Assembly (NCBI GenBank): GCA_012519465.1
Contig: JAAYQD010000368.1
Location: 1-15,470 of the forward strand
Source: Candidatus Cloacimonadota bacterium
GTDB taxonomy: Bacteria > Cloacimonadota > Cloacimonadia > Cloacimonadales > Cloacimonadaceae
Direction: 5' to 3'
Length of the DNA: 15,470 nt
Shown in pieces: positions 3,001-15,470 of this stretch. The notes beneath the pieces are model-generated. The model ran no database searches and was not told the origin of the DNA. It worked only from the letters and a program-made list of their open reading frames with translations. Every line of letters begins with the position of its first letter. Position 1 is the stretch's first letter. The position numbers and the translations under genes are program-made.

Positions 3001-3060
3001 ACCATGCGATTTAAGCCCTATGAGATCAAGACCTTACACCTTACAAGAGAGGAATCATGA
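1..3060 (+). CDS. Alpha-mannosidase, GH38 (MAN2C1-like), 5' end outside window
   Basis: Glycoside hydrolase family 38 retaining alpha-mannosidase, which removes terminal alpha-linked mannose from oligosaccharides. The N-terminal beta region (about residues 30-210, counted from the TTG at 37) resembles the cytosolic MAN2C1 type. The catalytic domain follows, with the zinc motif HAHLDLAW (H225, D229), the nucleophile motif LPDCFGF (D339) and the downstream FHDIIPGSS (H539). A large C-terminal beta domain ends the protein. No signal peptide is visible, so it should act in the cytoplasm on imported glycans. The reading frame stays open to base 1, and the residues encoded at 1-36 continue the helix that begins the family, so the true start probably lies just upstream. 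TTG at 37 has only a weak AAGG before it. The stop overlaps the next start in an ATGA. Family assignment is firm; the exact linkage is not readable. Confidence 0.95.
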   Translation, partial: QNEKIHIERIRRLIERLQPLVHQHSAQAHASFCYHDLPIPYTDLESQNWRAIQLGDKWGELWGSAWFKVSVTIPPELAGKELALWFDCDGEACVWRQGRPWQGLTPKVDWYHKAAKYLVPIGKEEDDATRTGAQHDFLIEAAANGLFGGGKDDFHLNVCKLVSVDSGLRSLITDISLLLDLALALPAGQVRRQRILHGLDRVCDLWETSREECAQILQGLLAMPANASSLTAYSVGHAHLDLAWLWPLRETKRKGGRSFANALRLMEEYPQYIFGASQAQLYKWMKELYPSLYEEVKDAYRAGRWEVQGAGWVEFDTNLISGESIIRQLNYGLSYFEEEFDISPRGLWLPDCFGFNANLPQFLVGCGLDWFMTQKLSWNESNTFPHHLFMWEGIDGSRILAHQMPTNDYNFSNNPSSFIQTEQRYDQSGICDSFLNLYGIGDGGGGPTREHIEYGIRQEDLEGSPRFRFAKAEEFFQHLKSLDKSLLPKLFGELYLELHRGTYTTQGRMKYDNRHSERLLNMAEFIATLDGNTYPQLLREVWEDTLLLQFHDIIPGSSITSVYEDSRSISEANHQKIGEYIRQTVQDLADAPSDFRRSFAVINANSWANQAWLEFPLELSESAALDENGNLLPAILLKDKLLVRVNMDAWAVAVVDWEEERCNNQIALPYDELEMENEHVKVQLSPQGTLTSVILKEDGSEVLAAESNILKLWEDEPNNWGAWDINHYYRTASARLPHAVRLLDDGCWRAGAHLQRLTFEIKIGGSTIIQMVELSDAAPWIKFHHEVDWKERHKMLRAHFFPAVHAAEASFEIAMGVLKRSAKPSNSFENAKFEVPAHRWIDLSQRDHGVALLNDCKYGHRVVDNEMDINLLRSLADVDPNADIHQHSYGYGFYPHLNDANGGGVLPQAHKFNAPPLVVELPAGRTLPVLPNFKPDLASVKLETIKPAEKGEGIIIRFYEYQGGNAKAEYTVPEGFANPRYCDLRERPLEEDVVCDDGIVTMRFKPYEIKTLHLTREES

Positions 3061-4496
3061 TACCCACACCCACCCTTAGGGTAATCTCGGAAGACTATCT
3101 GCAAATAGCCTCCACACCTATGTTTCGGGTGGCAGGAAAGAATTGTGCGCGCATCAAGCGCATCGTCACCCAGTTTGAATACTGGCTGCATGGCTATTTG
3201 GGCGCATCCACCTTTCCGCCCAAAGATGGCATCTTGCTGATCGATATAGATTTAAACGTAAACCTGAACCATCTGGACGGTGCCTATATCATCAACGTAA
3301 GTGCCACTGAAATCATGATCACCACCGATGGGGAGCAGGGCTTACGCAATGCCTTTGCCAGCCTCAAACAGCTGATCCATCGTGCTTTGACCTTCCATCA
3401 AGGCAAGCTGGAAACCCAATTCATTGGTGATAACCCAGCCTATGAATGGCGGGGGCTGCATCTGGACGTGAGCCGTCACTTCTTTGGCGTAAAAGAGGTG
3501 TGCCAATATCTGGACTGGATGGCGGCGCTGAAGCTGAACCGATTCCACTGGCATCTCTCTGATGATCAGGGCTGGCGCATCAATAGCACCCGCTTCCCCC
3601 TCCTCACCCGCAAAGGGGCGTGGCGTAAGGAGGATGATGGCAGCATCTACGGCGGCTTTTACACCAAAAAAGAGATTAAAGAGGTGGTGAAATACGCCTG
3701 CAGCCTCGGTATCACGGTGATACCGGAGATAGACCTGCCCGGGCATGCCATGGCTATCCTGAGCGCATATCCGGATCTGGCATGCTTCCCCCAAGAGTTT
3801 GAACCCCTCACCGTGTGGGGCATCTCCGAGGATATCCTCTGTGCCGGCAAAGACGCCACCTTATCCTTTTTAAAAGAGCTGCTCCTGGAGGTTGCCGAGC
3901 TCTTCCCCAGTCCCTATCTGCACATCGGCGGGGATGAGGCGCCCAAACACCGCTGGAAAGAGTGTCCGCACTGTCAACAGCGCATCCGCGAGGAAGGCTT
4001 GCAGGATGAGGAGGAGCTGCAAAGCTGGTTGATTGGAGAGCTGCAACAAACCCTGGTAGATGCAGGAAAGACGCTGGTTGGCTGGGATGAAATCTTGGAT
4101 GGGAACTTGGGCAGCCAACCCATAGTGCACGTTTGGCGCGGTGATGGCAAAGACGCCGCCCGCAAAGCTGCCGCCAATGGCAACCGTTATATCATCTCGC
4201 CCAACAAACTGCTTTACTTTGATTGGCGGGCAGAAGAAGACCCCGCTACCCCCGGAGCGCATGGCGTTACCACTCTGGAAAAAGTGATGGCAATCAAGCC
4301 CCGGGAATATGAATTTGAGGATGATAAGCTGCTCTTGGGAGGGCAGGCGAATGTGTGGACGGAGTATATGCCAGACTTTGCCACAGTCAAGAGGATGCTC
4401 TTCCCGCGTGTATTTGCCATGGCGGAGGTCTTTTGGAACGGACAATGTGAAGACGATCTGCCCCAGCGTATCAAAGAGGTGGAAAGCCTGTGGTAA
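3057..4496 (+). CDS. Beta-N-acetylhexosaminidase, GH20
   Basis: Removes terminal beta-linked GlcNAc or GalNAc by substrate-assisted catalysis. About residues 10-130 form the GH20b-type N-terminal domain. The catalytic barrel starts at EWRGLHLDVSRHFF, followed by WHLSDDQGWRI near residue 165. The catalytic Asp-Glu pair is in HIGGDEAPK (D293, E294), and the substrate-pocket tryptophans are in VGWDEIL and GGQANVWTEY (W434). The length of 479 residues is normal for a two-domain bacterial member. There is no signal peptide, so it is probably cytoplasmic, which suits short imported oligosaccharides rather than intact polymers. The ATG overlaps the stop of the alpha-mannosidase gene by 4 bases and has an AGAGAGGA ribosome site just before it, so the two are translationally coupled. 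Confidence 0.96.
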   Translation: MIPTPTLRVISEDYLQIASTPMFRVAGKNCARIKRIVTQFEYWLHGYLGASTFPPKDGILLIDIDLNVNLNHLDGAYIINVSATEIMITTDGEQGLRNAFASLKQLIHRALTFHQGKLETQFIGDNPAYEWRGLHLDVSRHFFGVKEVCQYLDWMAALKLNRFHWHLSDDQGWRINSTRFPLLTRKGAWRKEDDGSIYGGFYTKKEIKEVVKYACSLGITVIPEIDLPGHAMAILSAYPDLACFPQEFEPLTVWGISEDILCAGKDATLSFLKELLLEVAELFPSPYLHIGGDEAPKHRWKECPHCQQRIREEGLQDEEELQSWLIGELQQTLVDAGKTLVGWDEILDGNLGSQPIVHVWRGDGKDAARKAAANGNRYIISPNKLLYFDWRAEEDPATPGAHGVTTLEKVMAIKPREYEFEDDKLLLGGQANVWTEYMPDFATVKRMLFPRVFAMAEVFWNGQCEDDLPQRIKEVESLW

Positions 4497-5461
4497 AACG
4501 CCATCCCCATTCCCCCGTTATCACCAGAGAAGATATTAGCAGCACTGATCCCCGCCTCGATGATGTCACGTCCGTCTTCAACCCCGGTGGCATCTATCAT
4601 CAGCGGCAGATCATCCTGCTTTTGCGGGTGCAAAACAGGGGCAGAGAGACCTATCTAGTGAAAGCCACCTCCCGGGATGGGATAGAATTTGATATTGCCT
4701 CCAAGCCCGTGGAGATCAGGGGAATGCAGGGCTTTCCCCATCCATATTACCATATTTACGATCCCCGCATCGTGTATATTGAAGGCAGATATCTGGTCAC
4801 CTGTGCCGTGGACTCTGAAGCCGGCTGTAGGGTGGTGATCTTTGAAAGCGAGGATTTGGATACCCTCTCTTATTTAGGGATGCTAAATGACGAGGGGCAG
4901 CGCAATGGGGTGCTCTTTCCCCACAAGATAGACGGCAGATACTGGATGCTTTCCCGCCCCAATGAGCACTTGGGAGCCGATGGAGTGCGCTCTGGCACCC
5001 GCATCCTTGCCTATGTATCAGATGATCTTTGCGCTTGGGAAGAGCAGGGAATAGTGATGCAGGGACGGCCACACTATTGGGATGAGCTGATAGGCAGCGG
5101 ACCGCCGCCCTTGCTCACAGAGCTGGGCTGGCTGCATATTTATCACGGAGTTGCCACCCACTTTGGCGGGGGAGGCATCTACCAGGCGGGAGTATCCCTG
5201 CTGGATGCCACAGAGCCCCATAAACTATTGGCACGCGGCGCTTTTAACATCCTTGAACCTCGTGCAGACTATGAGATAATGGGACAGGTGCCCAACGTGA
5301 TCTTCCCCACCGTTGCCATCAATCCCATGGACGAACCCCTGGGAATGGATACCCCCATCTATATCTATTACGGAGCAGCAGATAGCTGCATTGGCTTGGC
5401 AACTGCCACCCTGCGTACGCTGTTGCCCTATTCCGGCATCGATTTAGGAGCATTACAATGA
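4490..5461 (+). CDS. GH130 family mannoside phosphorylase or beta-mannosidase
   Basis: A five-bladed beta-propeller of the GH130 family, whose members phosphorolyse beta-1,4-mannosides (for example Man-beta-1,4-GlcNAc or mannosylglucose), giving mannose 1-phosphate, or hydrolyse beta-1,2-mannosides. Visible signatures are FNPGG (30-34), YDPR (D91 is the likely general acid), LFPHKIDGRY (142-151), WDELIGSGPPPL (197-208), IYHG (H219) and YYGAADSCIGLATA near the C-terminus. Basic residues R46, K146, R156 and H219 are compatible with phosphate binding, so I lean towards a phosphorylase. I base this on memory of the family, not on an alignment. It starts at GTG, overlapping the GH20 stop by 7 bases, with GAGGTGG seven bases upstream. 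The 323-residue length is typical. No secretion signal is present. Its place after GH38 and GH20 suggests the last step of N-glycan-core breakdown. Confidence 0.9.
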   Translation: MVKRHPHSPVITREDISSTDPRLDDVTSVFNPGGIYHQRQIILLLRVQNRGRETYLVKATSRDGIEFDIASKPVEIRGMQGFPHPYYHIYDPRIVYIEGRYLVTCAVDSEAGCRVVIFESEDLDTLSYLGMLNDEGQRNGVLFPHKIDGRYWMLSRPNEHLGADGVRSGTRILAYVSDDLCAWEEQGIVMQGRPHYWDELIGSGPPPLLTELGWLHIYHGVATHFGGGGIYQAGVSLLDATEPHKLLARGAFNILEPRADYEIMGQVPNVIFPTVAINPMDEPLGMDTPIYIYYGAADSCIGLATATLRTLLPYSGIDLGALQ

Positions 5462-6525
5462 AAAAGACTTATGTTTTAGTGACACTCATATTTATGGCAT
5501 ATCTGCTGGTGGCAGATGTATTTCCCACGCCTGCCTTGCCCTTCAATCCCCTCTCCTATACCGCCTGTAAAGCCACTGGAGAGCTGGTGATGGATGGCAT
5601 TTTGGATGAGGATGACTGGCAGAAAACGCCATGGACAGAGGAATTTGTGGATATCGAAGGGGAGCTGAAGCCCCTGCCTTTCCATAGCACCCGCGCCAAA
5701 ATCCTATGGGATGACGATTATCTCTATATCGCTGCCCGTATGGAGGAGCCTCATATATGGGCTACCCTCACCGAACGGGATGCGGTGATCTTTCACGATA
5801 ACGATTTTGAGGTGTTCATTGATCCTGATGGCGATACTCACGATTATTACGAGCTGGAAATCAATGCCTTGGGCACCCTCTGGGACCTCTTTCTCATCAA
5901 ACCTTACCGCGATCGGCAGCAGGTGGCTATCAATGCCTGGGATATTCGCGGCATCCAGTATGGCATCCATCTGGAAGGCACCCTCAACGATCCCTCGGAT
6001 ATAGATACCGCCTGGCAGGTGGAGATGAGAATACCGATGAGCGTGTTGGCAGAGTGCGCCCACAAACCCACTCCTCCTCCGCATGGGGATTGGTGGCGGC
6101 TCAACTTTTCCCGCGTGAACTGGGATACCCAGATCGTGGATGGGATGTATCAAAAGATAGACGGTAAGCCAGAATACAACTGGGTGTGGAGCCCACAAGG
6201 GCTGATCGCCATGCACTATCCGGAGCGCTGGGGCTATCTCTTCTTTGCCCACCAGCCGGCTGGCACAGATATTTCCTTTTCCATCCCTGCCATCGAGTAT
6301 CGCAAAGAGAGCCTACGCCAGCTTTATTACCTGCAAAAGCAATATCAATACGATCACGGTAGCTATGCCCGCTCTTTGTGCAAGCTGAAGATACCAGCCC
6401 CGCTCAAAAAGCTGAAACCCAAGATACAAAGCACTTCTTTTGGCTATGTAATCACCCTGCCCGCCAAAGACGGCTTCCCCCAGCTGCATATCCGCGAAGA
6501 CGGGCTCTTGTGGGAAACCCCATGA
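5458..6525 (+). CDS. Secreted CBM9-like carbohydrate-binding protein
   Basis: The N-terminus is a signal peptide (MKK, then a hydrophobic stretch to about residue 20) without a lipobox cysteine, so the protein is exported to the periplasm or beyond. About residues 35-245 match the CBM9-like domain that binds sugar ends. This domain opens with MDGILDEDDW, continues with ILWDDDYLYIAARMEEP, and has the paired strands around NDFEVFIDPDGD and WQVEMRIPM. A C-terminal segment (about 265-355) contains LRQLYYLQKQYQYDHGSYA, a tail I recall from other bacterial CBM9-like proteins of about 350 residues. No catalytic domain is seen. The ATG overlaps the GH130 stop (ATGA), with AGGAG seven bases upstream. 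In this operon it is the only exported product, so it could capture the glycan or help present a surface polymer. Ligand unknown. Confidence 0.85.
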   Translation: MKKTYVLVTLIFMAYLLVADVFPTPALPFNPLSYTACKATGELVMDGILDEDDWQKTPWTEEFVDIEGELKPLPFHSTRAKILWDDDYLYIAARMEEPHIWATLTERDAVIFHDNDFEVFIDPDGDTHDYYELEINALGTLWDLFLIKPYRDRQQVAINAWDIRGIQYGIHLEGTLNDPSDIDTAWQVEMRIPMSVLAECAHKPTPPPHGDWWRLNFSRVNWDTQIVDGMYQKIDGKPEYNWVWSPQGLIAMHYPERWGYLFFAHQPAGTDISFSIPAIEYRKESLRQLYYLQKQYQYDHGSYARSLCKLKIPAPLKKLKPKIQSTSFGYVITLPAKDGFPQLHIREDGLLWETP

Positions 6526-6917
6526 AGCGCGTCATCACCTACGGCACCTTCGATCTCTTTCATTATGGGCATCTGCGCCTACTGGAAAGGGCAAATGCAA
6601 TGGGGGATTACCTCATCGTGGCTGTTTCCACCGATGAATTTAACCGCATCAAAAACAAGCACTGCGTGTATCCCTATGCAGAACGTGCGGCGATCGTGAG
6701 GGCTATCAAATATGTGGATGAAGTGATTCCGGAAGAGACCTGGGAGCAAAAGGCATCCGATATAATCAAGCACCAGGTGGATATCTTCGTGATTGGGGAT
6801 GATTGGCAGGGAGAGTTTGACTTCCTAAAGGAATACTGCCAGGTGCATTACCTGGAGCGTACGCCAAACATCTCTTCCACAGAGATTAAGGGTGATATCC
6901 GCGAAGGCAAAGGCTAA
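6522..6917 (+). CDS. tagD: Glycerol-3-phosphate cytidylyltransferase (TagD type)
   Basis: Makes CDP-glycerol from CTP and sn-glycerol 3-phosphate. The 131-residue protein spans the whole family without extensions. It has the nucleotidyltransferase signature YGTFDLFHYGH (H14 and H17 of the HxGH motif), VSTDEFN, VIGDDWQGEFDFL and RTPNISSTEI (R113, where Bacillus TagD has RTEGISTT). The resemblance to Bacillus subtilis TagD is strong along its full length and sets it apart from pantetheine or ethanolamine-phosphate cytidylyltransferases. I chose the ATG at 6522 because it overlaps the preceding stop (ATGA) and gives the canonical N-terminus MKRVITYGTFD. A longer frame upstream would lie inside the CBM9 gene. 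The product feeds the transferase encoded immediately downstream. Confidence 0.93.
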   Translation: MKRVITYGTFDLFHYGHLRLLERANAMGDYLIVAVSTDEFNRIKNKHCVYPYAERAAIVRAIKYVDEVIPEETWEQKASDIIKHQVDIFVIGDDWQGEFDFLKEYCQVHYLERTPNISSTEIKGDIREGKG

Positions 6918-7943
6918 GTGAAATACCTCTTTTATATCTCCAAGCTCTACTCCCTTGCCATCATCCAACCCCTGATGCGCCTCATGGATGGGGAGGGACG
7001 GGATTACGCACTCTTGGTAAATCAAGGAGTGTGGGAAAAGCTGCCTCAAGCCATGCGCAGCCAACGGGTTTTCACCTCCCTCCGCCAAGCGAAAAGCTAT
7101 CAGCCAGACTACGTTTTGGTACCTGGTAACTTCGTGGATCACCGCATCCCCGGCATGAAGGTGCAGATATTCCATGGCCTGGGAGTAGAAAAGGATGCAC
7201 ACTTCAGAATCCGCCACTTCTGTGATGCCTATTTCACCTCTGGACCCTATGTCACAGAGCGCTTTCTGGCAATGCAGCAAAAGCATCCCTATTTTGAAGT
7301 GAGAGAAACCGGCTGGCTCAAAATCGATGGCATCCTCTCTTGGCAGGGAGATAATCCCAGACAAACCCTGCAAATACCCCCAGATAAGAAGGTTATCCTC
7401 TACGCTCCCACCTTTAGCAGAAGCATGGAATCCGCCCACGAGCTGGCATCCGTGATCCCTCATATCATCAAAGAGGATGAGTATTGGCTCTTCAAATTTC
7501 ACCTCCTGATGCCACAGGAATTGATTGCGCCTTTTCAAGACATCGACCCGGCAAAAGGACGCATCCACACCGAGGAGGATATCACTATCTGCCTGCATGC
7601 CAGCGATGTGCTCATCTCGGATACCTCCAGCGTGGTCTATGAGTTTTATGCCCTGGATAAACCGGTAATCACCTATAAGAGCATCGCCCGTCCCCAAAAG
7701 GCATTGGATATACGGGACGCCAGCCAGCTGCGCGCTGCCATAGACCGCTGCCTGGATGATCCGGAAGAGCTTAAACGCATCCGCAATGAGGCAATGGCAG
7801 AGGTGAATCCCTATCTGGATGGCGGCATTGCCAAGCGTACTTTGGCAGCGTTGGATAGCCTGGACCCCAAAGAGTTTCCCCGCCCAGGCAAGCCGCTCAA
7901 CCTCTTTCGCAAGCTAAAAACCATCCTGCAGCGGCATAACTGA
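6918..7943 (+). CDS. CDP-glycerol glycerophosphotransferase-like protein (TagB/TagF family)
   Basis: Predicted to transfer glycerol phosphate from CDP-glycerol to a glycan or lipid acceptor. The 341 residues form a two-Rossmann GT-B-like fold. Conserved features are FHGLGVEKD (H86), LFKFHLLM (H195, the second family histidine) and ISDTSSVVYEFYALDKPVI (residues 233-251), the nucleotide-binding signature of CDP-glycerol glycerophosphotransferases. It is the size of a bare catalytic domain and lacks the long N-terminal region of teichoic acid polymerases. No membrane helix is obvious. The GTG start directly follows the TAA of the cytidylyltransferase gene with no gap, and AAAGG lies just upstream. 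Adjacency to a TagD homologue strongly supports CDP-glycerol as donor. Single transfer versus polymerisation cannot be told. The operon ends here, 16 bases before a terminator hairpin. Confidence 0.85.
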   Translation: MKYLFYISKLYSLAIIQPLMRLMDGEGRDYALLVNQGVWEKLPQAMRSQRVFTSLRQAKSYQPDYVLVPGNFVDHRIPGMKVQIFHGLGVEKDAHFRIRHFCDAYFTSGPYVTERFLAMQQKHPYFEVRETGWLKIDGILSWQGDNPRQTLQIPPDKKVILYAPTFSRSMESAHELASVIPHIIKEDEYWLFKFHLLMPQELIAPFQDIDPAKGRIHTEEDITICLHASDVLISDTSSVVYEFYALDKPVITYKSIARPQKALDIRDASQLRAAIDRCLDDPEELKRIRNEAMAEVNPYLDGGIAKRTLAALDSLDPKEFPRPGKPLNLFRKLKTILQRHN

Positions 7944-7959
7944 ATATCCCCCTAAAGCA

Positions 7960-7985
7960 AAAAGCCACCCCGAGGGATGGCTTTT
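7960..7985. terminator. Bidirectional intrinsic terminator between convergent genes
   Basis: Arms AAAAGCCA (7960-7967) and TGGCTTTT (7978-7985) pair perfectly, extended by CCC/GGG inside with one bulged A and a tiny loop. The stem is flanked by T-rich sequence on the + strand and, read on the - strand, ends in a run of T. It sits between the end of the six-gene + operon (7943) and the end of the - strand barrel gene (8009), so it can serve both. Confidence 0.75.
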
Positions 7986-8008
7986 GTAATTCTTTAATCT
8001 CTATTGTC

Positions 8009-8596
8009 TTAGTACACAACACCCAGATTGATCATGATGGCATTGTTCTTAATATCAGACTGGCTGCCACCGGACTTTTCATAGATATTGCTCATACCAA
8101 TGCTATAGCGTGCTCCAAACAGGAAGTTGTTATAAATTATATCTGCACCCCAGCCCACGCCAAAGTCAAAATCGTTCATGTTCTTAATATCAGATGTGGT
8201 CTCTACTCCTGCTACTTTGGCAGTTCTTTTCCCAGACAGCATATAACGAAATTCGGGACCAGCGTAGGGCTGAACCAGGATATCGCCTGCTGACAAATTA
8301 AGCTTGAGCAGGATGGGCAATTCTGCATAATGCTGGGTTTGGCTCCATGTAACGCTGCCACTATCTTTTTTGGCACCTCTTTGGGTGTAAAGCAATTCAG
8401 GCTGCAGGGTAAGCATGGGATGCAGCTCATACATCATCATCAAGCCGCCGTGGAAGCCAAGCTTGGTTCCACCGGAAGCGTTTTTCCCATTATAACTGGA
8501 AAGGTTTACTCCTGCACGCAATCCATAACTGGATTCCGCAAAGGCTGCTCCAAATACGAGCAACACCAGTACGCTAATTAATGCAAGTTTCTTCAT
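8009..8596 (-). CDS. PorT-like outer-membrane beta-barrel protein
   Basis: A small exported outer-membrane protein of 195 residues. The signal peptide MKKLALISVLVLLVFGAAFA ends in the AFA cleavage motif before ESSYG. The mature part is alternating, aromatic-rich amphipathic strands (GLRAGVNLS, LGFHGGLMMMYEL, LTLQPELLYTQRG, YAELPILLKLNL, VQPYAGPEFRYML, FDFGVGWGADI, FLFGARYSIGM) and ends in Y after strand-like NLGVVY, as expected for insertion by the BAM machinery. LQPELLYTQRG and the ELP..LK strand are hallmarks of the PorT/OMP beta-barrel family. I place the start at 8596: the ATG four codons upstream (8608) overlaps the GGAG that sits six bases before 8596, the ideal ribosome-site spacing. 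Function beyond an eight-stranded-type barrel is unknown. It is monocistronic, with its own promoter and terminator. Confidence 0.88.
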   Translation of the reverse strand: MKKLALISVLVLLVFGAAFAESSYGLRAGVNLSSYNGKNASGGTKLGFHGGLMMMYELHPMLTLQPELLYTQRGAKKDSGSVTWSQTQHYAELPILLKLNLSAGDILVQPYAGPEFRYMLSGKRTAKVAGVETTSDIKNMNDFDFGVGWGADIIYNNFLFGARYSIGMSNIYEKSGGSQSDIKNNAIMINLGVVY

Positions 8597-8640
8597 TTTG
8601 TTCTCCATTTCTATGTTTAGTGTGTAATGAATTTGCTAAT

Positions 8641-8668
8641 AGTATAAGCAAGAAAAGAAAAAAGCCAA
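8641..8668 (-). promoter_or_regulatory. Putative sigma70-type promoter for the beta-barrel gene
   Basis: On the - strand, TTGGCT (8663-8668) and TATACT (8641-8646) are separated by 16 bases, followed by about 40 bases of AT-rich leader to the start at 8596. The -10 box is good (5 of 6) and the -35 moderate (4 of 6). The match is by eye only. Confidence 0.5.
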
Positions 8669-8751
8669 AACATTTGTGAATAATGCTATCCAATATCCTG
8701 AAATTCCTCATAAATAATGCTTAACCTATAAAGATATGTATCCGCAAAACA

Positions 8752-8787
8752 ATACGGAGCAGCGCCTTGTTCTTCGCTACTCCGTAT
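8752..8787 (-). terminator. Intrinsic terminator after the GAPDH-like gene
   Basis: Left arm ATACGGAGCAGCG (8752-8764) and right arm CGCTACTCCGTAT (8775-8787) form a 13-bp stem with one mismatch around a 10-base loop. Read on the - strand the stem is followed by TTGTTTTG, and it lies 36 bases past the stop of the GAPDH-like gene (8824). It separates this two-gene unit from the beta-barrel gene. Confidence 0.7.
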
Positions 8788-8823
8788 CTTCAAGTATCAG
8801 GTGTATTATATCGCTGGCACTTC

Positions 8824-10074
8824 TTAGAAGCTGTTTTCCTCGATATGAATAGCCAGTTTGGACAGGGAATACACGTAGGAGCCCAGTTCGTTATCATACC
8901 AACCAAAGATCTTGGCATGCGTCACGGGCATTTCCACCTTTTTATCAATGGGCAAACCCTGGGCTTTCAAGTATTGCTCCGGAATGGCGATCAATCCTGT
9001 ACGGGTGTGGGTTTCATGGGCTTCAATGGTCACAGATGCCATGCTGCCAATCATATCCGCACTCACGTTCTGCCTTTCGCTGAATATCAACAGGTCTTTT
9101 TGTGGTCCATTTGCCGCCTGCTGATAGAGGTCGTTGATCAGCTTGCGGGTAACCACAGGCTCTCCCAGGGGGTCCAATTCCGTATGGAAGGTGACGTTGA
9201 GATTGATCAGGGAGACCGTATTGGTGGGGATACGCACGCTATCCGCCATAAAGCCGATATCTTTCACCTGGGGCATCACCAGTTCCAATGCCTTGGCAGC
9301 ACCGGTGGTGGAAAGAATGATATTGTTGAACACGCTGCGGCTTTTGCGCAGGTCTGAAGCACCCGCCTTGGGAACGTTATCCAGGATGGATTGAGTGTTT
9401 GTGGAGGCATGGATGGTGCTCATGGATGCGGTCATGATCCTGGAGGTGGCGGCATTATCCAAGAGTGGTTTGATCATGTGTGCCAAACCGGTTGTGGTGC
9501 AGGAGGCTGCGGAAATGATATGGTGTTGACGTGCATCATATTCCAGATGGTTGATGCCATAAATCATGGTTTTGCTGTCTTCCGGTGCGCCGGAACCGCT
9601 CTTGATCTTGAAAGGTGCGCTGCATAAAACCTTGAGGGCTCCGGCATCCAGGTGACCACGCACGCAGGGCTTGCCGGAATCTGAGGTGAGGGTGGGATCC
9701 AAAAATTGCCCTGTGCAATCCACCACCAGCTTCACGCCTTCATTCAACCAATTGATATCCTTGGGGTTACGCGCTTCCCTTAGCACTTTTACGGGGATGC
9801 CATCGATTTCCAAGAGTGGCTTTGAGGGATCGATGATTTTGATGGGAACCTTGGGGCCAACCATCCCGTTCATAAAGCGGTGAATGGAGCCATAACTGCT
9901 ATCCGTCTCAATCACCTGTATCAGGTCATCCAGGTTTTTGCCGATCTCGCGGCCACAATTGACCACGATGCCGTCAAAGTGTTTGAGGTGGATCTGATTC
10001 CAAAGAAGTAACTTCCCGATTCTGCCCAGGCTATTGATGCCCAGCAGTTTTTTGCTTCTGAGGCTGAGGTCCAT
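8824..10074 (-). CDS. Divergent, enlarged glyceraldehyde-3-phosphate dehydrogenase-like protein
   Basis: A GAPDH homologue of 416 residues, about 80 longer than the usual 335. The Rossmann start is GINSLGRIGK (12-21). The active-site segment is SAASCTTTGL (catalytic C192), where the usual form is SNASCTTNCL. H222 lies in STIHASTNTQ, phosphate-site elements are STTGAAKAL (255-263) and SVRIPTNTVS (R281), and the end keeps GWYDNELGSY (391-400). The catalytic Cys/His pair is therefore intact. The position that normally carries the NAD-selecting Asp after the second strand reads VVNCGREIG, so NADP use is possible. Extra residues lie around 60-90, 126-137 and 153-167. ATG at 10074 has AAGGAG six bases upstream. 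It follows the dikinase-like gene by 27 bases and is probably co-transcribed. It may act in glycolysis/gluconeogenesis or on a different aldehyde phosphate. Confidence 0.88.
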   Translation of the reverse strand: MDLSLRSKKLLGINSLGRIGKLLLWNQIHLKHFDGIVVNCGREIGKNLDDLIQVIETDSSYGSIHRFMNGMVGPKVPIKIIDPSKPLLEIDGIPVKVLREARNPKDINWLNEGVKLVVDCTGQFLDPTLTSDSGKPCVRGHLDAGALKVLCSAPFKIKSGSGAPEDSKTMIYGINHLEYDARQHHIISAASCTTTGLAHMIKPLLDNAATSRIMTASMSTIHASTNTQSILDNVPKAGASDLRKSRSVFNNIILSTTGAAKALELVMPQVKDIGFMADSVRIPTNTVSLINLNVTFHTELDPLGEPVVTRKLINDLYQQAANGPQKDLLIFSERQNVSADMIGSMASVTIEAHETHTRTGLIAIPEQYLKAQGLPIDKKVEMPVTHAKIFGWYDNELGSYVYSLSKLAIHIEENSF

Positions 10075-10101
10075 TTTTCTCTCCTTTGTCTTTTTTATTT
10101 A

Positions 10102-13100
10102 TTAGTAAATTTCATGCATGGTTTTCAGAGGCAAATGCCCCTCATAAATGGCTCCTGTAGAGGCGTCTATGGTGATGGAATCGCCTGCGCTCAGCTGGAT
10201 ATCACCAATGCGGCAGCGGGAATTGATCTCATCCACCACGAGGTCCCAGCAATTCACGATGCCAATCAATCCCAGCCGGGTGGCGGTCACCGCAGCGTGG
10301 GATGTCACTCCACCCCTGGAGGTGAGCAGCCCCTGGCATTCAAAGAGCAATACCATATCATCGGGCACGGTATCCGGCCGCACCAGAATGAGCGGATGCC
10401 CTTGCGCCTTGTATTCATCGATATCTTCGATATTGATCACGATCAGCCCATGTAGTGCCCCCTTGCCTATGCCGATGCCGCTGCCCAAGCGCGGGGCATC
10501 CAAAGCACTCTCTGCCAACACCATATAATCCGGCATCTTGCTGATGATCTGATTGCGCGTCTGCAAGAGGAATACCTGATCTTCCGCCGGACCCTCAAAG
10601 GTGAATTCTATCTCCTGATGCGGGAAATTGCGGTCTCGGATCAGCTGATTAGCCAAGCGCAACAGCCTATTGTACACACCGGGGAAACGCTCTTCCAAAG
10701 AGAGGTCCACGCTGCGCTCCTGATGCAAAGCCTGTGCCCTGGAAATGGGCAGGGTGTGCACCAAGCCTGCCACCACGTCTTCCCCCTGGCTGCAGATGGT
10801 GTAATCTCCATTCAGGCAAATGCCCGCTCCCTCGTGCCATTGCGCATGGGTGAAAAGCACTCCGGAGCCGGAATCAAGCGAGATATTACCCATCACCATC
10901 TTTTGGATGATCACCGCCGTGCCCCATTCATCGGAGATCTGCAATTTGCGGCGGTAAGCCTTTGCCAGATCGGCATTCCAGCTATCCAAAACGTGTGAGA
11001 TTGCCCGATAAAGCTGGCGGAAGGGATCTTGCTCCAGCTCGATGCCATAGATCGCCAACACTTCCTTATAATCCTGCGTCATTTGCTGCATCACATCCGG
11101 GGAAAACTGTGTCTTCAACTCCACCTGATACTTCTGTTTATAGCGCAGCATCACCTCGTCAAAGATATCTCTGGGAATGCCATACGCCATGCCCCAGCTT
11201 TGGATGAGGCGCCGATATGAATCCCAAGCCGTCCAGCTATAATTGCGCTGTTGGGAAAGCAGCAGGGTCACCTCATCGTTGAGCCCTATATTGAGGAAGG
11301 TATCCATCGCCCCGGGCAGGCTCATGGGCGCACCAGAGCGCACCGAGAGGAGCAGCGGCTTGGACGGATCTCCCAAAAAGTGCCTGGTATGCCTCTCCAT
11401 CCTGCCCAGATGGGTGCGCAAAAGCTCGTCAAATTCCTCTGATATATCTGGATGCGTATTGATTACATGGCGATTGCGGAAAAGCTCCGTGGTAATCACA
11501 AAGCCCGGAGGGATGGGATATTCAAAGTGCCACAGCCGTTTCAGGAAAAACGCCTTGGAGCCCAAAGCCACCTGATTGTCCAGATGTGTATGGCTGCTAT
11601 GCAGATGCACAAATAGTTTATCCGGGTCATAGGACATCAATTTGGCGATATCCTGAGGCTTAAACAGCCGCTTCATCCCCGCCAATGTCTCGATCAGATT
11701 GCTGATAAATACATCCAGCCCCTGCACCAAAAACGAACCCATCAACAGCTTGCGATAGATGCCTTCCGCCTCTATTTCAGAGGAAAGTCCACGGCTTTCA
11801 TCAGCACAGCGCCGCTTTAGCTCCGGATCATAAAACCTGAAGTAGTATTCATTTACAATCTCATTCACGCTGTCTTTCAACAGACGGAAGATATCCATGT
11901 ATTGCTCCAGACTGGCGTTCATGATATTGGTCACCGAATCCAGCATCTCCACCGTGGAGCTATAGGCAAAATTGGTGAGCATCTCCTGGCTCATAGCATA
12001 ATCGTAAAGCCCCAATATCTTCACGATACGGCGCAAATTCCTGCCGTTTATATAGCTGAGGTTTATCTGTTTGATGCTGTGCTCAAAGAGGCGCCGCACC
12101 ACGTTTTCTATCCTGAATACCATGCCCATCGCTTCCAGTTTGGGTTCGCGGTAGCTGCCATACATGGAGGGGATGCCCGCAGCGATGTGGCGTTTATAAA
12201 ATATATTGTCCCAACCCGTGCTGGGCATGGGGTTGAGGATGATGCTGTTTAATTTGCCTATATAACTGAGCAACTGGCGGATGGAGCTCTCATAATCCTT
12301 TCGCACCAGGCTGGTGCGCAAACGGTTTTGCTCCTTGGAATCAAAGAACTTGTAGCGCGCCAAAAACTTTACGATATCATAGGGATCCAGCTCGTATTTA
12401 TCCTTGAGCAGCAGATGGATATTACACAGCAGGCGCAGGCGTTTCAGATAAAAGCTCCCCTCTTCCTTGCCGTCAAAGGTGCGTTCCAGATTTTGCCAGG
12501 ATAGCGCCAAGAGCTGGCTGGCACTCAAGTTTTTCTCTGCCAAAAACGCATTAACCGCCTTATTTTGCTTGTGTTGCAGGTCATCCTTTTGCTCCAAATA
12601 CTGCCGCACATCCTCTGGAATCATATTATCCAGCTTGCCAATATCCAGATCAGTCCAATAATCCAAGATGGAGGCACACAGCTTGATATGGGTGTTGTTG
12701 CTCTCCGTATGCACCTGTTTGCGCAAGAAATGGATAAGCCTGTCATGGCGCTGGGAAAGCTCATCCACCTCTGTGCTCAAATCCCGAATTTCGCCTTCCG
12801 CCCCGATCTCGCTAAAGAAAACGGGGATCTGCCGCAGGAGGTGTCTCAACTGGATAAACACGCCCCTGATATCGGCGTTGAGCAGGTTGGAGACGTCCTT
12901 TTGAAAGAGGTCTTCATCGGAGATAAAGATGCCGCTCTTGGTCACATTGATCACCAGATAAGCCAGCAGGTCTTTGCCCAGATTGGGGTCCAGCTTGATC
13001 AGCTCCATCAGCATCCGGATGTGTTTGATATGGTTTTTATCCGTATCCAATTGCCAATCTTCGCGGATGCGCACCTCTCCCGGCGGAGTGAATTTCAGCT

Positions 13101-14127
13101 GGGTGAGCCTTTGCATAAAGTGTTTGCTATGCTCTGCGTTGCCTGCATTGATCACCGTCTTGCCTATGGAAAGCAGACAATCCAACACGATGGAAAGGTG
13201 GCTGTCGTGAAAGCTCTCCAAGGCGGCAAACACGGAATCGATGATATCCGGTATCTCCTCTGCCGGCATATCTTTATACAGGTTTATCATCTCGCGGTTG
13301 AGGTCCCAGAGCAGGTGATCCCGCAGGTCTTCCATGCCCTGCAGCTTTAGGAGGGCAAAGATATAATCCAAACGCCCCAGATTATCCTCTATCTGGCACA
13401 CGCTTTCCCGCAGCCTATTGGCGGTATCGCTAAAGGAGGGCAGCCGGGTAAAATCCTTGATGCTTTGCAGGCTTTTAATAGTCTCTTGCAAGCCTTCCCA
13501 ATAGGGCGCCAGGGGAAATCCATCCTCCCCCAAGAGGGGCAGATGCGTGCTTTGCTGTTGCCACAATAGAAAGCCATCATCAAATAGCTGCCTTAAAAAT
13601 GCCTGCGCCCGGTTTTGCAATTCATCCGCGGCGGGCAGCTTCAAAAAGCTCTTGCGCACGTGGCCATTGAGCCGGATATAATGTTGCGGATAGCTCTTGG
13701 CATCCTCTTCCAAGTGGTGCAGGATATCCAAAAGCAGCTGATGATCAGCCTCTGCAAAGCCACACAGGGTTGCCATAAATTCCAATACCTCGCCTATCAT
13801 CCTCAGATGCAGGGATGGTTCGCTGGCTTTTTCCCACACTTTTTGATAAGAGGCAAAGAGCGCACGCTGTGCCCTGGCGGTTTCTTCCAGTTGCATAAAG
13901 ACCCACATATCTCCCAAAATCCCCTTGCGCATCAGCCCCATCGCCAATTCGGGATTCATAAAAGGATGATATATTTCTTCAAGAAGCTCTTTGCAACGTT
14001 GATGAATGCCAAAATGAGAAGCACAGCTATCCAAGAGCCATAAGGCTTCATTATCCAGTTCTATACGGGCTTGTTTTGTCACTGCCAAATTGGCAGTTAG
14101 GGCTTTGGAATCTAAGGGTTGCACCAT
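10102..14127 (-). CDS. PPDK-type ATP-grasp and phosphohistidine protein with large unknown N-terminal region
   Basis: A 1341-residue protein. Residues 1 to about 840 are mostly helical, with a charged, possibly coiled segment around 430-545, and match no family I recognise. About 845-1192 is a pyruvate phosphate dikinase-type ATP-binding domain: LGSKAFFLKRL (K858), PPGFVITTE, LSVRSGAPMSLPGAMDT (about 926-942), WDSYRRLIQ, WGTAV, SQGEDVVAG, then QEIEFTF and LLQTRNQ near the end of the domain. About 1195-1335 is the swivel domain with LTSRGGVTSHAAV, its phospho-accepting histidine being H1277. The protein ends there: the C-terminal PEP/pyruvate barrel of PPDK and PEP synthase is absent. ATP-dependent phosphorylation of H1277 is therefore likely, but the final acceptor is unknown. 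No signal or membrane segments are seen. It leads a two-gene unit with the GAPDH-like gene and starts about 40 bases below a good promoter. Confidence 0.85.
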   Translation of the reverse strand: MVQPLDSKALTANLAVTKQARIELDNEALWLLDSCASHFGIHQRCKELLEEIYHPFMNPELAMGLMRKGILGDMWVFMQLEETARAQRALFASYQKVWEKASEPSLHLRMIGEVLEFMATLCGFAEADHQLLLDILHHLEEDAKSYPQHYIRLNGHVRKSFLKLPAADELQNRAQAFLRQLFDDGFLLWQQQSTHLPLLGEDGFPLAPYWEGLQETIKSLQSIKDFTRLPSFSDTANRLRESVCQIEDNLGRLDYIFALLKLQGMEDLRDHLLWDLNREMINLYKDMPAEEIPDIIDSVFAALESFHDSHLSIVLDCLLSIGKTVINAGNAEHSKHFMQRLTQLKFTPPGEVRIREDWQLDTDKNHIKHIRMLMELIKLDPNLGKDLLAYLVINVTKSGIFISDEDLFQKDVSNLLNADIRGVFIQLRHLLRQIPVFFSEIGAEGEIRDLSTEVDELSQRHDRLIHFLRKQVHTESNNTHIKLCASILDYWTDLDIGKLDNMIPEDVRQYLEQKDDLQHKQNKAVNAFLAEKNLSASQLLALSWQNLERTFDGKEEGSFYLKRLRLLCNIHLLLKDKYELDPYDIVKFLARYKFFDSKEQNRLRTSLVRKDYESSIRQLLSYIGKLNSIILNPMPSTGWDNIFYKRHIAAGIPSMYGSYREPKLEAMGMVFRIENVVRRLFEHSIKQINLSYINGRNLRRIVKILGLYDYAMSQEMLTNFAYSSTVEMLDSVTNIMNASLEQYMDIFRLLKDSVNEIVNEYYFRFYDPELKRRCADESRGLSSEIEAEGIYRKLLMGSFLVQGLDVFISNLIETLAGMKRLFKPQDIAKLMSYDPDKLFVHLHSSHTHLDNQVALGSKAFFLKRLWHFEYPIPPGFVITTELFRNRHVINTHPDISEEFDELLRTHLGRMERHTRHFLGDPSKPLLLSVRSGAPMSLPGAMDTFLNIGLNDEVTLLLSQQRNYSWTAWDSYRRLIQSWGMAYGIPRDIFDEVMLRYKQKYQVELKTQFSPDVMQQMTQDYKEVLAIYGIELEQDPFRQLYRAISHVLDSWNADLAKAYRRKLQISDEWGTAVIIQKMVMGNISLDSGSGVLFTHAQWHEGAGICLNGDYTICSQGEDVVAGLVHTLPISRAQALHQERSVDLSLEERFPGVYNRLLRLANQLIRDRNFPHQEIEFTFEGPAEDQVFLLQTRNQIISKMPDYMVLAESALDAPRLGSGIGIGKGALHGLIVINIEDIDEYKAQGHPLILVRPDTVPDDMVLLFECQGLLTSRGGVTSHAAVTATRLGLIGIVNCWDLVVDEINSRCRIGDIQLSAGDSITIDASTGAIYEGHLPLKTMHEIY

Positions 14128-14170
14128 AATCCTCTATTGCATTATGTTCAGACATTTACACAGCATCACC

Positions 14171-14199
14171 TTTTTATTTATGATGCCATTTTCTGTCAA
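14171..14199 (-). promoter_or_regulatory. Putative sigma70-type promoter for the dikinase-like gene
   Basis: On the - strand a perfect TTGACA (14194-14199) is followed after exactly 17 bases by TAAAAA (14171-14176), leaving a leader of roughly 40 bases to the ATG at 14127. The ribosome site before that ATG is AGAGG with short spacing. Confidence 0.6.
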
Positions 14200-14237
14200 G
14201 AGGCAAATTGGTTGAATTGAGCATATTTTGCTTGACA
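14194..14237. promoter_or_regulatory. Inverted repeat spanning divergent -35 boxes
   Basis: TGTCAAG (14194-14200) and CTTGACA (14231-14237) are perfect reverse complements, with partly matching CAAA and TTTTG further in. Each arm contains a TTGACA facing outwards: one is the -35 of the dikinase-like gene, the other points to the beta-helix gene. The + strand -10 at the right spacing (TTGGAT, 14255-14260) is weak. The arrangement could be a shared operator or simply two -35 boxes in mirror position. Confidence 0.4.
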
Positions 14238-14329
14238 AAAACCTGCGGTGGGCGTTGGATATGAATCAGCGTGGGCTGGCAACCCGAGGGTTTCCGCCAT
14301 GCGCCAGAAGCATTTTAAGGAGAGAAGCC

Positions 14330-15238
14330 ATGCGCAGAGCATTTTTGTGCTGTTTAACTTTGGTGGCAGTGCTGGCAGCAGTAATCCCTCTGGCTGCCGC
14401 AAAGCTAGGCGAAATGAACGTAGTAAACGTTACAAACGAACGGGAATTTTTGAAAGCTATCGGCTCAAACACGGTGATCAACTTGGAGGGTTTGGACGGC
14501 GGTTATTTGGTGTTTTCGGGAAAACAAACGCTGGGGATGCCTAAAAATGCACGCTGGGAAGAAGTTTTCGATGGATATCAACTGGTGGTCAGCAATGTGA
14601 ACAACCTTACCATCACCGGCAGAGCCGTGGGTTTGAGCGTGATTATGGCGGAACCGCGCTATGCCAACGTGATAAAATTTGAAAACTGCAAAGACATCCG
14701 CCTGGAAAACCTGAGCCTGGGACACACCGATGGTGGTTATTGCACTGGCGGGGTGGTGGAACTGGATCACTGCCAAGACTTTTCCATCTGGAATTGCGAG
14801 CTGTGGGGCTGTGGCATCGAAGGCATCACTGCCTGGGATAGCAGCGGCTTGACGTGTGAGCTAAGCTCCATAACAGATTGCACTTATAATGCCATGACGA
14901 TGGTGAGGGTGAGCGATGTGAACTTTGTAAACTGCGTGATTCGGAATAATATTGAATTCAACACTCTGAACTTCAGCGACTGCAAGGATGTAACCTTCAC
15001 TGACTGCGCCATCTTCGATAACGCCGCCTTCGGACAGTGGGACACCAGCTATCTCATCCATTCGAATAATTCAAGAATCAAATTCCAGGGATGTGCCATC
15101 TTTAAAAACAACGTGCATGAGGTGACCAACAACCCCAGAATGGTGCGCTTTGAAAACTGCGCCATTTTCCAAAACGAACACATGAGCTTTGAAGGCGATG
15201 AGCATGATGAACCGATGGACTGGGATTATGATTGGTGA
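14330..15238 (+). CDS. Secreted parallel beta-helix repeat protein
   Basis: A 302-residue exported protein of unknown role. The N-terminus (MRRAFLCCLTLVAVLAAVI, then PLAAA) is a signal peptide, cleaved near residue 24. From about residue 70 the sequence repeats a pattern of short strands ending in an aromatic/Asn-Cys turn: FENCKDIRLENL, LDHCQDFSIWNCEL, VSDVNFVNCVIRNN, FSDCKDVTFTDCAIFDN, IKFQGCAIFKNN, VRFENCAIFQNE. This is typical of right-handed parallel beta-helices of the NosD/pectate-lyase-like fold. No polysaccharide lyase or esterase active-site set is evident. The tail after residue about 287 is very acidic (EGDEHDEPMDWDYDW). The ATG at 14330 was chosen because AAGGAG lies seven bases upstream and the signal peptide starts there. 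The frame extends upstream to 14228, but those residues look non-coding. Monocistronic, with its own terminator. Confidence 0.85.
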   Translation: MRRAFLCCLTLVAVLAAVIPLAAAKLGEMNVVNVTNEREFLKAIGSNTVINLEGLDGGYLVFSGKQTLGMPKNARWEEVFDGYQLVVSNVNNLTITGRAVGLSVIMAEPRYANVIKFENCKDIRLENLSLGHTDGGYCTGGVVELDHCQDFSIWNCELWGCGIEGITAWDSSGLTCELSSITDCTYNAMTMVRVSDVNFVNCVIRNNIEFNTLNFSDCKDVTFTDCAIFDNAAFGQWDTSYLIHSNNSRIKFQGCAIFKNNVHEVTNNPRMVRFENCAIFQNEHMSFEGDEHDEPMDWDYDW

Positions 15239-15269
15239 ACCTCCAATAAACACAGTGTTTTAAGCGAGC

Positions 15270-15299
15270 GGGGATGGATGATTTTCGTCCCCCTTTTTG
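15270..15299 (+). terminator. Intrinsic terminator after the beta-helix gene
   Basis: GGGGA (15270-15274) pairs with TCCCC (15288-15292), and wobble pairs inside extend the stem to about nine base pairs. It is followed by CTTTTTGATTTTTG on the + strand, 31 bases past the stop. A small AAACAC/GTGTTT inverted repeat (15248-15260) lies in between. Confidence 0.75.
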
Positions 15300-15413
15300 A
15301 TTTTTGTCTTTGAGGCAAGGAAACCGGGCTTGGGCGGCGCTGAGCAAAAGCGGGCTTTTTTTGGGGCTGGAAGGCTAATGCACTTATAGGGTTTCAGGGT
15401 TCTTGCCTGTTAA

Positions 15414-15470
15414 CCACCTTTGTCTCTCCTTTGCCTCGACAAGGGTGAGACAAGGGTGGTACAAGGGTGG
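15414..15470. repeat. 11-bp-period repeat cluster in both orientations, running off the window
   Basis: Three direct copies end the window: GACAAGGGTGA (15438-15448), GACAAGGGTGG (15449-15459) and TACAAGGGTGG (15460-15470). Just before them CCACCTTTGTCTC (15414-15426) is the reverse complement of GAGACAAGGGTGG (15447-15459) at 12 of 13 positions, and CCTTTG recurs 11 bases on (15417 and 15428). The cluster could fold into a hairpin. No coding region is recognised between the terminator and the window end. Confidence 0.6.

Follow-up and report, generated by a model that had tools for sequence, protein, structure and literature searches.

A barrel-less PPDK relative with an undescribed N-terminal domain, paired with a long GAPDH paralogue in four bacterial phyla

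What does a dikinase phosphorylate when the domain that serves pyruvate is missing? The question is raised by a gene on a contig of a Candidatus Cloacimonadota bacterium (JAAYQD010000368.1 of assembly GCA_012519465.1, positions 1 to 15,470, the whole stretch of 15,470 nucleotides being referred to below as the window). The gene lies on the minus strand at 10102..14127, with its ATG at 14127 and a stop codon ending at 10102, and encodes a 1341-aa phosphohistidine enzyme derived from pyruvate phosphate dikinase (PPDK), which we call DIK; its genome of origin (G000) measures 1.99 Mb and is 89% complete. A sequence-only reading of the window had given the right coordinates and had described a PPDK-type ATP-grasp domain, a swivel domain with H1277 and then the stop, no PEP/pyruvate barrel, and a long N-terminal region of no known kind. 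Pfam and PDB matches bear out this order of domains, the barrel is indeed missing, and about 845 N-terminal residues have neither a Pfam match nor a convincing PDB match. We report here that DIK is very probably coupled in function to GAPDH-L, a long paralogue of glyceraldehyde-3-phosphate dehydrogenase (GAPDH) encoded next to it, and we weigh what such a pair may do.

The C-terminal part of DIK resembles PPDK. Only two Pfam families score over their cut-offs, PF01326 PPDK_N (82.7 bits, cut-off 27) and PF00391 PEP-utilizers (53 bits, cut-off 23.1), and residues 848-1330 match positions 16-510 of the PPDK chain 5jvn in the PDB with an E of 2.4e-64. The NCBIfam PPDK model TIGR01828 gives 336 bits, below its whole-protein cut-off of 843, as would be expected of a protein that lacks the barrel third. 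Pfam, PDB and hhalign together place a PPDK-type ATP-grasp (nucleotide-binding) domain at residues ~848-1195 (10543..11586, minus strand), a placement also backed by the kept residues, and a swivel (PEP-utilizers, mobile) domain at residues ~1213-1335 (10123..10491, minus strand). Aligned with two PPDKs, that of the same genome and one more, the catalytic half gave an hhalign probability of 100%, with 32% identity over 473 columns. Within it, K858 and R930 are invariant in 38/38 family sequences, and E1172 (standing where PPDK has Asp), E1174, Q1189, R1191 and H1277 in 37/37 of those that reach them; presumably these residues have the roles of their counterparts in the PPDK of C. symbiosum. 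The codon of H1277, the predicted phosphorylated histidine, lies in the GGVTSHAAV motif at 10297..10299 (minus strand), and all 37 sequences that reach this position have His there. DIK thus has the ATP-grasp domain of PPDK with its ATP-site residues and the TSHAA swivel histidine, and lacks the PF02896 barrel.

This architecture is no accident of one contig. Thirty-four sequences (33 loci and the window) preserve a reading frame of 1192-1406 aa, which is far beyond chance; two of them are cut by contig ends (L057, L059) and one contains a run of unknown bases (L067). Uncut frames, counted from the first start codon, measure about 1335-1410 aa, a few being longer through the mechanical choice of start; the protein of locus L006, from a Cloacimonadota genome, is 98% identical to that of the window. 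Judged by these matches and alignments, DIK is the catalytic half of PPDK joined to an undescribed N-terminal domain, which stands in place of the pyruvate-binding part.

That domain, residues 1-845 (11593..14127, minus strand), is a putative acceptor or partner-binding domain, probably all-helical. In an alignment of 38 sequences 63 of its residues are invariant, including 24 that are D, E, K, R or H and 7 that are N, Q, S or T, and 38 of the 63 fall within 110 of the 845 positions, in two blocks. Block A, residues 399-475 (12703..12933, minus strand), is built around DTDLFQKD, EIGAEGE and HFLRKQ-HTE and holds 23 invariant residues; block B, residues 642-674 (12106..12204, minus strand), is built around KRHIAAGIPSMYG and holds 15. 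The alignment supports the view that residues 1-845 are conserved in the manner of a functional domain, and both blocks, rich in Lys, Arg, His, Asp and Glu, resemble an anionic ligand site, as would be expected for such a site. AlphaFold2, run on residues 1-845 with two near-identical sequences, returned helices only, at a mean predicted local distance difference test (pLDDT) score of 37; the structure prediction proposed by the sequence-only reading therefore suggests at low confidence that the region is probably helical, and yields no fold.

Sequence comparisons placed the N-terminal domain in no described family. Across 17 relatives a Pfam scan of the domain gave only scattered weak matches (best E 0.007, with 13 of the 14 families found in a single member), and in a PDB search with one N-terminal sequence no chain did better than an E of 0.14. 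Two candidates were dropped: OGFr_N at residues 681-768, which is below its cut-off (15.3 bits against 22), and a P450/reductase chain, the best PDB match of a 17-member N-terminal profile (E 0.0018), which we judged implausible. A barrel fold hidden in the N-terminus, against which the sequence-only reading had cautioned, is not seen either: hhalign of the N-terminal profile with three PPDK/EI barrels (EI being enzyme I of the phosphotransferase system, PTS) gave a probability of 0.5%, where the positive control, the C-terminal profile with the nucleotide-binding and histidine domains of PPDK, reached 100%, an easier case at 32% identity. An internal duplication was not seen either, the N-terminal domain and the nucleotide-binding and histidine part of PPDK being aligned at a probability of 0.1%. 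By these comparisons the domain represents a protein family that Pfam does not list, with a defined set of conserved residues.

If the enzyme does not tell us its acceptor, its neighbour may. Downstream of DIK on the same strand, at 8824..10074, lies the gene for GAPDH-L (416 aa), separated from it by a 27-bp gap (10075..10101), and co-transcription is predicted. A GAPDH-L homologue of more than 50% identity is found directly downstream of DIK and on its strand in 42 of 48 loci drawn from all the phyla concerned. The gaps in these 42 loci have a median of 29.5 bp; 37 of them measure 12-85 bp and one 471 bp, and of the four negative values three clearly stem from mechanical start choice and one is a 4-bp overlap. 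Three of the six misses are contig ends, with GAPDH-L on another contig (L045/L101, L057/L106, L059/L107), and three are real separations in genus g143 (L092, L093, L141), where GAPDH-L is elsewhere in the genome; the two genes are also adjacent in L094, which a score limit kept out of the 48. No other neighbour of DIK is conserved in Cloacimonadota: when the neighbours in the loci of this phylum were clustered, the DIK cluster comprised 33 loci, the GAPDH cluster, which pools GAPDH-L with a GAPDH found upstream of DIK in some loci, 32, and the next cluster 4.

The two genes also occur together at the level of genomes. Detection relied on the N-terminal domain alone for DIK and on one sequence at a fixed E-value (1e-50 or better) for GAPDH-L, in a sample that is a part of bacterial diversity and includes several incomplete genomes. 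Used alone as a query, the N-terminal domain matches in 50 of 124 Cloacimonadota genomes, and the 17-member profile picks up 55 genomes out of 386, namely those 50 and five from outside the phylum; a single-sequence pattern scan of the genome contigs confirmed one locus, such patterns reaching close relatives only. GAPDH-L is present in 58 of the 386. Outside Cloacimonadota (262 genomes by subtraction, all 124 being taken as included), DIK and GAPDH-L occur in the same five genomes and in no others. Within the phylum 49 genomes have both, and four have GAPDH-L but give no match to the N-terminal domain of DIK: two of these (G012, G043) have a truncated DIK gene next to GAPDH-L at a contig start, and in the other two (G087, G100) GAPDH-L is at a contig end. 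In G044 a remnant of DIK (residues 209-286 next to 881-968; L096 2776-3462) is followed by the same downstream genes as in G043 (compare L097) and GAPDH-L is absent, which looks as if the two genes had been lost together.

Extending the sample to the three further phyla in which DIK occurs gave the same picture. DIK is found in 4/8, 7/7 and 19/28 of their genomes, counts that include the five first found, and in the last of these phyla all 19 belong to one family and the other 9 genomes lack DIK. Among 38 of the later genomes, whose GAPDH-L status was not known beforehand and which come from phyla chosen for the occurrence of DIK, GAPDH-L is present in 23 of 25 with DIK and in 0 of 13 without. 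Over all 423 genomes both genes are present in 77, DIK only in 3, GAPDH-L only in 4 and neither in 339 (Fisher p 1.8e-75, with genomes treated as independent though they are related); stronger evidence is that the pair recurs in four phyla. The two proteins also correlate in their pairwise identities (r 0.96 in 39 loci), a value of little weight because common descent alone gives it, so that it favours no reading of the pair over another. Spread by mobile elements, phages or plasmids was considered and set aside: the N-terminal domain has no match in plasmids or phages and none confirmed in viral contigs. A role in anti-phage defence drew no PADLOC match at an E of 0.01. The sequence-only reading was right about a PPDK-type ATP/His pair without a barrel and with a large unknown N-terminus, and its proposed check of whether the architecture is conserved across a lineage came out positive (matches in 50 of 124 Cloacimonadota genomes and in three other phyla); limited to one window, it had missed the GAPDH-L partner and the occurrence in four phyla.

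GAPDH-L itself is expected to carry out GAPDH chemistry, as its catalytic residues are kept: Cys192, His222, Thr225, Thr257 and Arg281 are invariant in 43/43 sequences. Like type I GAPDH it retains the catalytic Cys and His and the Arg and Thr of the phosphate sites, and it differs from that enzyme in its length (416 aa against ~335), in conserved insertions, notably one of ~30 residues that ends in PVTHA ahead of a WYDNE motif, and in the loss of an Asp. In ordinary GAPDH the Asp of an N-D-L motif selects NAD, and its loss accompanies NADP use in other GAPDHs. In GAPDH-L this site reads N-x-G-R, with N39, G41 and R42 invariant in 43/43 sequences, and the Asp aligns opposite G41; the register may be off by one, and either way there is no Asp there in the printed GAPDH-L sequences. 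From this motif, GAPDH-L may be of the NADP type. The protein scores 294 bits against TIGR01534, below the cut-off of 367, and its sequences from 39 loci are at least 50% identical pairwise, as against ~33-38% identity to the ordinary GAPDH of the same genome (a comparison of identities, not a tree).

We infer the phosphorylation, its acceptor, the cofactor and the direction of the following scheme, which starts from an architecture, catalytic residues and a genomic and phylogenetic coupling that are observed. Since the barrel is gone, the acceptor site must lie in the N-terminal domain or in the partner; since the sole consistent partner belongs to a reaction that involves 1,3-bisphosphoglycerate, a carboxyl phosphate, we tentatively propose that DIK is a phosphoglycerate-type dikinase paired with an NADP-type GAPDH-L. 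As its conserved residues suggest, ATP bound to the ATP-grasp domain would phosphorylate H1277 of the swivel domain, which, judging by the conservation of the N-terminus, would carry the phosphoryl group to a site there that replaces the PEP/pyruvate barrel. The most likely acceptor would be a three-carbon compound of the GAPDH reaction: 3-phosphoglycerate would become 1,3-bisphosphoglycerate as ATP is converted into AMP, and GAPDH-L would then reduce this product to glyceraldehyde 3-phosphate, probably with NADPH. Transfer from a phosphohistidine to a carboxylate has a precedent in succinyl-CoA synthetase. The net result would be a one-way gluconeogenic lane alongside the ordinary GAPDH/PGK pair; alternatively, the reaction may run backwards with pyrophosphate, as that of PPDK can, and form an energy-saving glycolytic lane. 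In its fullest form the proposal is that, between glyceraldehyde 3-phosphate and 3-phosphoglycerate, the pair provides a new version of a trunk step supposed to be fixed: a phosphoglycerate dikinase that converts ATP into AMP, possibly with a link to pyrophosphate, and its own NADP-type GAPDH would channel the labile 1,3-bisphosphoglycerate within a two-protein complex, beside ordinary GAPDH and PGK; so complete a scheme we regard as rather improbable.

Several observations weigh against a phosphoglycerate dikinase. The Arg of the FTR motif of PPDK is kept in only 5 of 38 DIK sequences, which makes a PPDK-like use of phosphate or pyrophosphate uncertain. The window's genome also has an ordinary GAPDH (on contig C77 of G000), so the pair comes on top of it with no evident need, and the idea that DIK replaces PGK was rejected, PGK being missing in 6 of 50 Cloacimonadota genomes with a DIK match and in 13 of 74 without one. 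Nor are the two genes always together. Of the 14 genomes of genus g143 that have both, 12 carry them on separate contigs and two (G410, G415) close to each other. A second GAPDH-L copy with no DIK beside it stands on contig C203 of G025 (L103), in a cluster of glgP (glycogen phosphorylase), GAPDH, PGK, part of TPI, PGI, a full PPDK, a PPDK regulator and PGM (phosphoglucomutase); this contig is probably foreign to the genome bin because its PGK type differs from that of the relatives. The glycolytic company in which this copy is found counts, for its part, in favour of the proposal. Finally, DIK occurs without GAPDH-L in three genomes, namely G044 with its remnant, G388 with a broken copy, and G422, which is 59% complete. 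The DIK-related pieces of G388 (L134) lie in several frames and include an internal stop, and represent a broken copy or assembly errors.

A regulatory role accounts for the genomic data equally well, which also counts against our proposal, and we consider it almost as likely as the phosphoglycerate dikinase. DIK would then bind GAPDH-L through its N-terminal domain and switch it on or off according to its phosphorylation state, reading ATP, AMP, Pi or pyrophosphate. There is a model for such a protein: VadK, a PPDK without a barrel, autophosphorylates on His422 and is reported to interact with, and to tune, methylcitrate-cycle enzymes encoded nearby; for methylcitrate synthase, modulation through binding has been proposed (PMC13400623). 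Regulation agrees with the pairing of DIK with one enzyme gene, with the lack of any other conserved neighbour in Cloacimonadota, with the conserved insertions specific to GAPDH-L and with the coupled loss in G044. However, a domain of 845 residues in which 63 positions are invariant, and 24 of these charged, is much for a docking surface, and VadK itself has no such large domain.

It is also possible, with less in its favour, that DIK is a dikinase for some other small molecule, such as glyceraldehyde, glycerate or a different polyol or sugar phosphate, and supplies or drains the GAPDH-L reaction in an indirect way. Dikinases that lack the barrel and have a new acceptor domain are known: rifampin phosphotransferase (RPH; PMC4844700) and HpeHI, CreHI and PpsAB, which act on phenols (PMC12167813). 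But in the clustered Cloacimonadota loci, whose neighbours were not annotated individually, no further conserved gene stands beside the pair to name a substrate.

Far less probable is that DIK phosphorylates glycans in the manner of glucan water dikinase (GWD). GWD has a long N-terminal region ahead of its ATP/His module, as DIK does, and it carries a carbohydrate-binding domain and has its His domain before its ATP-grasp domain. In DIK, however, the ATP-grasp domain comes first, Pfam scans of DIK and its relatives show no carbohydrate-binding domain, and the glycosidase genes of the window recur, among the compared loci, only in the near-identical L006. A split or degenerate PPDK or PEP synthase, its barrel supplied in trans or its function lost, would fit the match to PPDK across two of three domains and can scarcely be entertained, since the genome encodes a complete PPDK (906 aa) and PTS enzyme I, so that DIK is not the cell's PPDK; since these two proteins account for both PEP-utilizers_C matches and leave no orphan barrel, the separate gene that the sequence-only reading had thought of, in the 89% of the genome that is present; since the ATP-site residues and H1277 are invariant though pairwise identity drops to ~30%; and since the N-terminal profile matches no barrel.

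Beyond the pair, the surroundings of DIK vary. A short GAPDH homologue, ~24-30% identical to GAPDH-L, lies directly upstream of DIK in some deep lineages: in Cloacimonadota at L055 4845-5849, L056 11129-12133, L057 980-1978, L059 3573-4415 and L060 9177-9812, and also at L091 6661-7659, where it is very divergent and perhaps not a normal GAPDH any more. A matrixin-type secreted protease is encoded near DIK in five of seven loci from the phylum of G222 (L094 1799-3442, L095 3926-7384, L135 9776-11488, L136 584-2239 and L138 10601-12244); it is not in L137 or the cut L142, and in the neighbour clustering it is absent from the loci of other phyla. In the three loci that were scanned (L094, L135, L138) it combines Peptidase_M10 with a C-terminal sorting or FlgD_ig domain. 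In one genome, G406 (L140 10857-13084), two NfnAB-like genes directly follow DIK and GAPDH-L, one with NAD-binding and DHODB Fe-S domains and one with Fer4_20 and a pyridine nucleotide oxidoreductase domain, an NADP/ferredoxin enzyme type; this single observation would fit an NADPH link.

In the window itself, positions 1-6525 hold GH38 alpha-mannosidase, GH20 and GH130 genes and then a CBM9-like protein, probably a cluster for the breakdown of mannose- and hexosamine-containing glycans, and positions 6378-7943 hold cytidylyltransferase-like and CDP-glycerol glycerophosphotransferase-like genes, whose resemblance suggests a glycerol-phosphate surface polymer. A promoter and terminator scan of the window found 8 and 5, against 7.3 and 6.2 in shuffles, no more than the shuffles give, and we claim no operon boundary from it; no RNA element in the window reached the gathering score.

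The pairing of DIK with GAPDH-L suggests that central sugar metabolism has an unrecognised step carried out by two proteins; their genes form a module, apparently belonging to central carbon metabolism, that is found in four bacterial phyla. According to a review, the GAPDH/PGK step has just two known variations, both of them archaeal (PMC8100219); if DIK makes or uses 1,3-bisphosphoglycerate, the pair would be another. If instead DIK regulates GAPDH-L, barrel-less PPDK relatives would act as metabolic regulators in other phyla too, with a new large domain. Under either reading the N-terminal family, which has no Pfam entry, offers a clear set of residues. In a search of full-text literature, which did not cover subscription papers, no title or abstract start among the results described the pair.

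How, then, does DIK compare with known systems? With PPDK (5jvn, 1kbl, TIGR01828) it shares an ATP-grasp domain and a swivel His in the same order, the ATP-site residues and TSHAA, whereas it lacks the C-terminal barrel, has a new N-terminal domain of 845 residues and a His near the C-terminus, and is partnered by GAPDH-L. VadK (Rv1127c) is likewise PPDK-derived, with ATP-grasp and His, a lost barrel and ties to specific metabolic enzymes, but it has two domains only (~50 kDa), methylcitrate-cycle partners rather than GAPDH, and is described from actinobacteria (PMC13400623); DIK, at 1341 aa and with an added domain, shares the missing barrel and not the two-domain size. RPH and HpeHI, CreHI and PpsAB also combine ATP-grasp and a swivel His with an acceptor domain that is not a barrel, and the His of RPH is near the C-terminus as in DIK; however, the acceptor domain of RPH lies between the ATP-grasp domain and the His, and that of HpeHI, CreHI and PpsAB on another subunit, whereas the extra domain of DIK precedes the ATP-grasp domain (PMC4844700, PMC12167813). 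DIK does not have the RPH domain order, and its score against the RPH model NF041857 is 23.9 bits (cut-off 999), its match to PPDK being far better. The absence of the barrel is by itself not novel, since RPH, HpeHI/PpsAB and VadK are likewise without one (PMC4844700, PMC12167813, PMC13400623). As far as can be seen, what is new in DIK is the 845-residue domain ahead of the ATP-grasp domain, and the pairing with a GAPDH.

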